Shown here in pieces: positions 1,262-2,806 of a DNA stretch of 64,000 nucleotides. Source of the stretch: Formosa haliotis (GTDB taxonomy: Bacteria > Bacteroidota > Bacteroidia > Flavobacteriales > Flavobacteriaceae). Under the pieces are notes generated by a model, which ran no database searches, was not told where the DNA came from, and was given only the letters and a program-made list of their open reading frames with translations. Position 1 is the stretch's first letter, and each line of letters starts with the position of its first letter. The translations under genes and the position numbers were made by a program. The stretch is taken from NCBI RefSeq assembly GCF_001685485.1, contig NZ_BDEL01000001.1:2973501-3037500 (forward strand), in the 5' to 3' direction.

Positions 1262-1334
1262 AAATCAAAAACTCTGCACTGTTACCATGCAGAGCTTTCT
1301 TTTTAATAATTCTCCCTAAGAACTAATTAATAGC
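1262..1334 (-). ncRNA. Tandem small RNA, copy 1 (promoter-distal to the response regulator)
   Basis: Predicted transcript of about 73 nt. The promoter is at 1339-1369. The transcribed part starts with a segment identical in all three copies (plus-strand complement about 1305-1343) that contains AGGGAGAATTATT, and ends in a hairpin with stem AAGCTCTGCA / TGCAGAGTTT, a TAAC-containing loop and a T-run. The stem differs from copies 2 and 3 at paired positions, which supports an RNA structure. It is not tied to a named Rfam family here. Confidence 0.62.
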
Positions 1335-1338
1335 ATTG

Positions 1339-1388
1339 TAAAGATAAAGGATTGGTTTGATGTATGAAATACGTATATATGTGTATTT
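1339..1388 (-). promoter_or_regulatory. Promoter and 22-bp palindrome of small-RNA copy 1
   Basis: On the minus strand, TTTC (1366-1369), exactly 19 nt, then TATCTTTA (1339-1346), close to the Bacteroidota consensus TTTG-N19-TAnnTTTG. Immediately upstream and touching the -33 element is the imperfect palindrome AAATAC-N10-GTATTT (1367-1388). It can be read as two inverted heptamers, TACGTAT and TACACAT, 2 bp apart, the 7-2-7 layout used by NarL-type regulators. Its centre is about 43 bp before the predicted start. Confidence 0.6.
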
Positions 1389-1405
1389 TTTTCGAGTAAG
1401 GTTCT

Positions 1406-1477
1406 AAAAAACAAAACTCTACACCAGTTACGATGTAGAGTTCCTTAAATAATTCTCCCTAAGAACTAATTAATAGC
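1406..1477 (-). ncRNA. Tandem small RNA, copy 2
   Basis: Predicted transcript of about 72 nt, organised like copies 1 and 3. The terminator stem is AACTCTACAT (complement of 1433-1442) paired with GTGTAGAGTT (complement of 1415-1424), with loop CGTAACTG, followed by TTTTGTTTTTT. The 40-nt segment starting near the predicted RNA 5' end (complement of about 1448-1487) is identical to copies 1 and 3, while spacer sequences have drifted, so the transcribed segment is what is conserved. Confidence 0.63.
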
Positions 1478-1481
1478 ATTG

Positions 1482-1531
1482 TAAAGGTAAAGGATTGATT
1501 TGTAGTATGAAATACGTATATATGTGTATTT
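1482..1531 (-). promoter_or_regulatory. Promoter and 22-bp palindrome of small-RNA copy 2
   Basis: Minus-strand TTTC (1509-1512), 19 nt, TACCTTTA (1482-1489). The palindrome AAATAC-N10-GTATTT spans 1510-1531 and is base-for-base the same as in copy 1. Spacing between palindrome and -7 element is identical in all three copies. Confidence 0.6.
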
Positions 1532-1551
1532 TTTCTGAGAAGGTTTCTTAA

Positions 1552-1622
1552 AAAACAAAAACCCTACACCGGTTAAGATGTAGGATTTTCTGAATAATTC
1601 TCCCTAAGAACTAATTAATAGC
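1552..1622 (-). ncRNA. Tandem small RNA, copy 3 (nearest the response regulator)
   Basis: Predicted transcript of about 71 nt. The terminator stem is AATCCTACATC (complement of 1577-1587) with GGTGTAGGGTT (complement of 1560-1570), loop TTAACC, then TTTTTGTTTTTT. Compared with copy 2, one stem pair changes from T-A to C-G, both partners having changed. Copies are 143 and 145 bp apart. The unit begins only a few bases after the stop codon of the response-regulator gene. Confidence 0.62.
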
Positions 1623-1626
1623 ATTG

Positions 1627-1676
1627 TAAAGGTATAAGATTAATATATAGTATGAAATACGTGGATATACGTATTT
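1627..1676 (-). promoter_or_regulatory. Promoter and 22-bp palindrome of small-RNA copy 3
   Basis: Minus-strand TTTC (1654-1657), 19 nt, TACCTTTA (1627-1634). The palindrome AAATAC-N10-GTATTT (1655-1676) has a diverged centre but keeps both arms, and it lies 2 bp from the stop codon of the response regulator. Retained arms with a drifting centre suggest a protein-binding site. Confidence 0.58.
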
Positions 1677-2353: not shown

Positions 2354-2806
2354 TTATTTAATAATCAGTCTTTTAAGGTATAGATATTTCCGGTCGTAAT
2401 CAATAATTCCTTTTCCTTTTTTCAAAATATCGGCACCAATAATACCATCTACAGGAGTGGAATTATGATTAACCAAAGCGGTATTTACATGGGTCATATT
2501 AAACAAAATTAAAGCAACCTTGTCTTTTTTCCACTTTCCAATTTTTATATTATTTTTTTTAGACAGTTGGGTAGTCATATTAATAGCACCGGCTCCAGCG
2601 GCTTTTATTTCAGAATCTTTTACCTTTAAATTAAAGTTTTCTATAGCATCAAAATCGACGCAAGAACTAGAAGCGCCCGTGTCTAATATAAAAACACCTT
2701 TTTTACCATTTATACTCGCCTTAATTTCAAAGTGATTGGTTTTAGTAAGTTTCAATTTTATTTTAACGTAATCTCTGTTTAATAGAAATTCTTGAAGTGA
2801 AGTCAT
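2354..2806 (-). CDS. Retropepsin-like aspartyl protease
   Basis: A 150-residue single-lobe aspartic protease of the retropepsin-like type found in many Bacteroidota. The active-site motif FILDTGASSSCVD is at about residue 40, and VDGIIGADILKK near residue 120 is the typical distal motif of the fold. No signal peptide is evident, so it is probably cytoplasmic. Because such enzymes act as dimers, the single DTG motif is as expected. A perfect -7 element (TATCTTTG, complement of 2824-2831) lies 18 bp before the start. It is followed by the response regulator and may share its transcript. Confidence 0.82.
   Translation of the reverse strand: MTSLQEFLLNRDYVKIKLKLTKTNHFEIKASINGKKGVFILDTGASSSCVDFDAIENFNLKVKDSEIKAAGAGAINMTTQLSKKNNIKIGKWKKDKVALILFNMTHVNTALVNHNSTPVDGIIGADILKKGKGIIDYDRKYLYLKRLIIK

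Follow-up and report, generated by a model that had tools for sequence, protein, structure and literature searches.

Three tandem small RNA (sRNA) genes on the minus strand of a 64,000-nt window of the Formosa haliotis genome (the whole stretch of DNA that was analyzed) appear to form the RNA output and feedback arm of an adjoining response regulator (RR), which would activate the sibling sRNAs that in turn would repress its own translation. A probability of roughly two in three is assigned to this reading. The units, each about 70 nt in length, were found behind the RR gene at positions 1679 to 2311, with a repeat spacing of 143 and 145 bp. A first-pass annotation of the same DNA had proposed the three tandem units, at 1262 to 1346, 1406 to 1489, and 1552 to 1634 with this spacing, all of which were recovered when the sequence was re-read, while the upstream palindromes, the adjoining RR gene, a 5' hairpin, a downstream miniprotein gene, and the feedback target were absent from it.

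On the minus strand, unit 1 was located at 1261 to 1334, unit 2 at 1406 to 1477, and unit 3 at 1551 to 1622, with scores of 74.1, 74.4, and 74.2 bits, respectively, against a covariance model built from relatives together with the units of the window. A search of the 4.3-Mb genome of the strain with this model identified only these three places at E ≤ 0.01. Folding against dinucleotide shuffles gave z values of -3.89, -4.81, and -3.86 for units 1 to 3. The alignment of the units revealed the same parts in each: first a palindrome and a spacer, then a -7 box (TAnCTTTA) and a 5' segment, and last a variable terminator hairpin. The palindromes, considered as putative operators, are at 1368 to 1387 for unit 1 and 1511 to 1530 for unit 2 (both AATACACATATATACGTATT on the minus strand), and at 1656 to 1675 for unit 3 (AATACGTATATCCACGTATT on the minus strand), where the centre precedes the G of GCTATTAAT by about 43 nt. 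The -7 boxes follow on the minus strand at 1339 to 1346 (TATCTTTA), 1482 to 1489, and 1627 to 1634 (both TACCTTTA), the last of which also forms part of a conserved column block among relatives. All three units share an identical 5' segment, GCTATTAATTAGTTCTTAGGGAGAATTATT, and their conserved 5' end is GCUAUUAAU.

Two hairpins are predicted in each RNA, all on the minus strand. A 5' hairpin with AGGG at its tip, indicated by RNAalifold, pair counts, and the fold, spans 1307 to 1325 in unit 1, 1450 to 1468 in unit 2, and 1595 to 1613 in unit 3, and a terminator hairpin, indicated by pair-change counts and the fold, spans 1267 to 1299, 1413 to 1444, and 1557 to 1590, respectively, with TAAC in the loop. 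The promoter-like boxes TTTC-N19-TAnCTTTA, the common 5' segment, and the TAAC loop agree with the first-pass description, as does the covariation of the terminator stems: two positions are altered on both sides (G-C to A-U and U-A to C-G), and in unit 3 a U-G wobble forms the outermost pair. Elsewhere in the same genome, an isolated fourth palindrome with a GCTATTAAT block (C1, around 4246896; L163:892) scored 39 bits by the PSSM, far from the RR gene and without a match to the covariance model, and it is perhaps a diverged further sRNA.

The structure was assessed in an alignment of relatives. A total of 180 units were parsed (PSSM above 15 bits), 179 of which gave some hairpin and 151 a terminator score of at least 14. 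After a length window and a uniqueness filter, 141 units remained, including 82 with AGGGAG, and 55 hand-chosen from these 82 (near-duplicates thinned) were combined with the three units of the window into an alignment of 58 sequences, which covers AGGGAG units and leaves out the 59 units without this motif. RNAalifold predicted two hairpins in this alignment, with 98.0% of the cells paired, a percentage that is biased towards the terminator, as the terminator was itself a selection criterion. Changes on both sides were found in 13 of the 19 pairs, including 11 of 11 in the terminator and two of eight in the 5' hairpin. Cells with such changes numbered 149 in comparison to 26 in shuffles, and none of 500 shuffles reached 149. 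The compensatory counts, together with the slid controls, are stronger evidence for the predicted structure than the percentage paired. The hairpin tip varied among the 180 parsed units, where 95 carried AGGGAG, 32 carried GAGAG without AGGGAG, and 53 carried neither.

The RNA is conserved within Flavobacteriaceae, the family of the window. The covariance model matched 72 of 199 genomes of the family (198 genera), the genome of the window included, at E ≤ 0.01. In an order-wide search with stricter filters, eight of 296 genomes, a set that includes members of the family, matched at E ≤ 0.001, seven of them within the family and one, weakly, in another. Against the 4,227 families of Rfam 15 (cmscan, gathering thresholds), only two tRNAs were identified in the window, and the units matched no family, Flavo-1 included, so membership in any Rfam family at the gathering threshold is ruled out. 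Below the threshold, ohsC was placed over unit 1 (20.7 bits against a required 50, E = 1.5), and Ocean-V was placed at 1202 to 1275, a range that takes in the end of unit 1 (25.4 against 75, E = 0.006). A literature search of titles and the beginnings of abstracts, with subscription papers and bioRxiv mostly outside its range, found no description of such an array. The first-pass annotation had not recognized the family and had inferred three small-RNA genes under selection for structure; both views are borne out by the pair changes across the 58 sequences, the conservation, and the Rfam search. A chance repeat is ruled out by the conservation and covariation of the units, and the best-supported reading of these predicted structures is of three separate sRNA genes of about 70 nt that are selected for structure.

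The adjoining gene encodes a LuxR/NarL-type RR of 210 amino acids (minus strand), with Response_reg and GerE domains above the Pfam cut-offs. The nearest NCBIfam names among the matches listed were MctR and NarL, all far below the cut-off. The RR is proposed here as both the activator of the array and its RNA target. The first palindrome starts 3 nt behind the end of its gene. The consensus of the palindromes resembles AATACGYAnnnnTRCGTATT, and its midpoint precedes the conserved 5' end by about 43 nt, a distance typical of activator sites.

The linkage was surveyed by scanning named genomes with the RR alignment, where the best 80 of 569 loci were taken, from Formosa, Algibacter, Flavivirga, Tamlana, Bizionia, Lacinutrix, Mariniflexile, Hyunsoonleella, and other genera. 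The PSSM, covering the palindrome, the -7 box, and the 5' end, was built from 113 seeds drawn from these same 80 loci. At a threshold of 12 bits, 187 units were found in the best 80 of 569 loci, 186 of them on the RR strand, while the reversed sequences of the 80 loci yielded none. Every one of the 80 contained at least one unit, with one to seven units per locus; above 18 bits, 17 loci had one unit, 40 had two, 18 had three, two had four, two had five, and one had seven. The -7 box occurred at a fixed spacing within the conserved block throughout these 80 loci, and in 72 of the best 80 of 569 the distance between the RR stop codon and the first palindrome was -9 to +10 nt. These loci are related by descent, and the counts are therefore not independent.

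A second set of 18 close RR orthologues, which includes that of the window and partly overlaps the 80 loci (several genomes are shared), showed PSSM matches above 8 bits in 15. Of the others, L051 has the palindrome only, and L044 and L050 have, by eye, a degenerate palindrome directly before the miniprotein gene. None of 12 distant RR paralogues had a PSSM match or a strict palindrome, although at one of them (L055) the covariance model matched weakly at a distance of 1.4 kb (E = 0.002). Among the 199 family genomes, the sRNA (E ≤ 1e-5) and the RR (E ≤ 1e-40) were both present in 48, the sRNA alone in four, the RR alone in 44, and neither in 103. Hence, an RR match was found in 48 of 52 sRNA-bearing genomes as compared to 44 of the remaining 147, and 44 of the 92 RR-bearing genomes had no sRNA match at E ≤ 1e-5. 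In two of the joint genomes (G153 and G197), the RR matched only at 1e-43 to 1e-46, and these matches are probably paralogues.

Two neighbouring genes recur. At the end of the array, a conserved single-TM (one-helix) miniprotein of 35 amino acids is encoded at 1125 to 1232 on the minus strand, with no match in Pfam or NCBIfam. A similar ORF of about 35 codons followed the array in 73 of the best 80 RR loci, where the ORFs were chosen by hydrophobicity and a motif near the end. Because hydrophobic mini-ORFs were also found in 33 of the 80 reversed controls when the motif filter was omitted, the weight of this conservation lies in the sequence likeness, as judged by eye. The miniprotein may be an older target of the RR than the sRNAs, since L044 and L050 carry the degenerate palindrome directly before its gene. 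Upstream of the RR, a domain search identified a gene for a retropepsin-like aspartic protease (2354 to 2806, minus strand), and such a gene adjoins several sRNA copies elsewhere too.

The candidate antisense sites lie in the leader of the RR mRNA at 2312 to 2333 on the minus strand, as suggested by complementarity and by enrichment across the family. One is CUCCCU (2314 to 2319), the complement of AGGGAG, and the other is UUAAUAAGC (2322 to 2330), the complement of GCUAUUAA with one bulged A, both on the minus strand. RR leaders frequently look complementary to the sRNA, as in AATTAATAGC-n-AATTCTCCTC-n-ATG. In the leaders of the best 80 of 569 loci, AATAGC occurred in 48, as compared to 496 of 13,750 control windows (3.6%), TTAATAGC in 28 as compared to 0.2% of control windows, and any of CTCC, TCCCT, or TCTCTC in 52 as compared to 14%. 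Both sites, in order and just before the start codon, were found in 38 of the 80 leaders but in only 46 of the 13,750 control windows (0.33%). The reverse complements of the leaders gave 0, 0, and 1 of 80 in three single-motif tests, and the leaders of the miniprotein genes had both sites in 0 of 71. When leaders were clustered at 75% identity, both sites were present in 20 of 52. The second site ended 7 to 12 nt before the start codon in 44 of the 52 leaders that have one; it is missing in 28 of the 80, and the two-site motif is incomplete in 42.

Predicted duplex energies point in the same direction. Pairing of an sRNA with the leader of its own locus had a mean z of -1.63, with 28 of 80 below -2, as compared to a mean of -0.02 and 15 of 355 below -2 for control windows, while at 12 of the 80 loci the pairing was no better than that of shuffles (z ≥ +0.1). 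Swapping the first-unit sRNA between loci hardly mattered because the sRNAs are so alike (native -14.7 and swapped -14.4 kcal/mol, with a mean rank of 0.41 as compared to 0.5 by chance). A UCUCUC-type leader was found at 12 of 25 loci with a GAGAGAG unit and at four of 55 others (p = 7e-5, uncorrected for relatedness), and no association was observed between AGGGAG units and CTCC-type leaders (37 of 71 and 3 of 9, p = 0.48). In the leader of the window (TTAATAAGCAACTCCCTCA-ATG), site 1 is interrupted by one extra base, and its duplexes with the sRNAs are predicted at -12.5 to -14.2 kcal/mol, which are raw values.

In the proposed circuit, the activated RR would bind the palindrome before each unit at a class II position (centre at about -43) and initiate transcription at the G of GCUAUUAAU or an adjacent base. 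Each unit would be expressed as an RNA of about 70 nt whose 5' end is left open, followed by a small stem-loop that is rich in purines at its tip (AGGG or GAGAG) and by a Rho-independent terminator. The 5' end may then pair with a AUUAAUAGC-like site in the RR mRNA leader and the hairpin tip with a CUCC, UCCCU, or UCUCUC site, a duplex that would lower RR synthesis, while the tandem copies would set the RNA dose.

The same RNA was also found behind other regulators. Twenty regions with 23 sRNA copies were hand-picked from the matches listed, on the criterion that the copy is distant from the RR or that its genome has no close RR. A PAS-LuxR protein of 255 to 260 amino acids precedes eleven copies, and their palindrome is TACTCAAnnTGAGTA; the one such protein scanned had a GerE match at 3.9e-15 and a PAS_3 match just below the cut-off. 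A second RR type, itself preceded by a TPR protein with a weak HATPase match, stands before four copies, whose palindromes resemble TTACGGnnnnCCGTAA and in one case are imperfect; the one such RR scanned had a weak Response_reg match. Five copies have the RR-type palindrome and no intact RR immediately upstream (L225, L229, two in L230, and L233). In L230 the RR frame is shortened, and the palindrome and sRNA are retained in L230, L225, and L229, where the sRNA may outlast its regulator. One copy (L236, at 169471) has the palindrome AATACCCCAAATTAGGTATT and adjoins an opposite-strand gene that is unclassified and may encode another type of regulator, and two (L226 and L228) have no clear palindrome. 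The genome of the window has no PAS-LuxR match at E ≤ 1e-30.

In all seven cases measured, the centre of the palindrome preceded the G of GCTATTAAT by 41.0 to 43.0 nt, as compared to about 43 in the window, and the 5' end and hairpin of the RNA were kept in the PAS-LuxR and second-RR copies, where the palindrome differs. Since different palindromes share one activator distance before one RNA, the palindromes would be the operators and the RNA the retained part. A broader proposal, to which we give somewhat less than even odds, is that of a portable cassette of about 70 nt, where signalling pathways of Flavobacteriaceae, each using a palindrome of its own at -41 to -43, feed one sRNA pool that represses the array-driving RR and so links the pathways. 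It counts at least three kinds of regulators, namely the NarL-type RR, which would drive the largest array, the PAS-LuxR protein, and the second RR behind a TPR protein with a kinase-like ATPase match.

The attachment of one RNA to three kinds of regulators could also suggest a common downstream purpose, and the sRNAs might be genuinely RR-activated while mainly regulating other mRNAs in trans, with the RR-leader match incidental or minor. Sibling sRNAs such as OmrA/B are reported to have several targets (PMC4211561). A search for the two-site motif before ATG in 20 genomes identified 116 matches, as compared to 34 for the reversed pattern. However, of 16 matches inspected in 15 regions, 14 were inside or opposite ORFs of more than 100 codons and two were outside, and the excess may therefore reflect codon usage. 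One of the 14 (G019; L281, around 531 to 545) spans the start codon of a bactofilin gene, which is a candidate trans target, and the only RR-leader match of the two-site pattern among the matches listed was also that of G019. For TTCTCCCTA before ATG in 12 genomes, no excess was observed (57 matches and 57 reversed), several matches were sRNA genes themselves, and no plausible gene start was seen at the 48 loci or regions inspected. No further recurring target gene was thus found among the matches listed in the two scans, although shorter or weaker targets are possible. In a single case (L275, around 524 to 590), an intergenic TTAATAGCAACTCCC followed by a hairpin lies behind a promoter-like box and might serve as a small RNA decoy for the sRNA. 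With the strong enrichment in RR leaders against it, regulation mainly in trans is considered unlikely.

Far less probable is the titration of a CsrA-type RNA-binding protein. In the RsmX/Y/Z systems, the LuxR-type RR GacA activates multicopy sRNAs via an upstream palindrome, and the sRNAs, with GGA in their hairpin loops, sequester CsrA/RsmA. The array shares the multiple copies, the LuxR-type RR, and the upstream palindrome, and the hairpin tip AGGGA fits the CsrA motif ANGGA. Unlike those systems, the genome of the window has no match to CsrA (PF02599), while the same search was positive in three of 14 control genomes, and CsrA titration is rejected for this genome. Additionally, 32 of the 180 parsed units carry GAGAG without AGGGAG, so a GGA loop is not found in those members. 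A protein that binds both AGGG and GAGAG tips would revive the titration model. Least probable of all is that the conserved blocks, with no functional RNA, act as DNA sites for the RR or another protein or as stacked terminators of the RR mRNA, a view consistent with the strongly conserved palindrome and with the 3-nt gap behind the RR stop codon in the window, which makes the first terminator of the RR mRNA that of a unit, but opposed by the compensatory changes in both hairpins, the retention of the 5' end and hairpin beside a different palindrome, and the fixed spacing of the -7 box.

Activation of the array by the RR, with feedback on its mRNA, remains the preferred reading. To our knowledge, few trans-acting sRNA circuits are known in Bacteroidota. 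The array presents a likely activator, operator, feedback target, and copy-number variation (one to seven) in sequence alone, and because these likely parts can be read from sequence, the circuit lends itself to direct testing in marine genera that can be cultured, Formosa and Algibacter among them. If one sRNA gene is indeed attached to several regulators, the evolution of an sRNA network would be readable in gene order.

Among known systems, the Qrr genes use sigma-54, CiaR belongs to another RR family, and OmpR is a winged-helix RR whose gene is not next to omrAB. The OmrA-B family was presumably among the 4,227 Rfam families searched by cmscan, where no match indicating OmrA/B homology was found, and by the same search the array RNA belongs to neither the OmrA/B nor the Qrr family. 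The Qrr sRNAs of Vibrio are described as several homologues that are activated by LuxO, pair with luxO mRNA, and are encoded at dispersed loci (PMC4211561). The array likewise comprises several homologous sRNAs with an RR as the proposed activator; unlike the dispersed Qrr genes, it is in tandem and has a Bacteroidota-type promoter. In Streptococcus, the target of the csRNAs is comC, and the RR CiaR drives several of these near-identical sRNAs (PMC4211561 for the drive by CiaR). The array likewise has several near-identical sRNAs with an RR as their proposed driver, and the RR mRNA is the proposed target here. Rfp18 of Flavobacterium psychrophilum is, like the array RNA, a conserved flavobacterial sRNA, and it may be distinct, being described in a transcriptome study as pairing with metalloprotease mRNAs via a third stem-loop (PMC9723704). 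A close parallel is with OmrA/OmrB of E. coli (EnvZ/OmpR), described as tandem sibling sRNAs with a common 5' end that are activated by OmpR and repress the mRNA of their own regulator (PMC4211561, PMC12692685). Similarly, the window contains tandem sibling sRNAs with an identical 5' end; unlike omrAB, they immediately follow the gene of a LuxR/NarL-type RR, belong to another phylum, and have no Rfam match, and the feedback is inferred from sequence. If the proposed reading holds, an OmrA/OmpR-type feedback circuit would exist in another phylum with an unrelated RNA.
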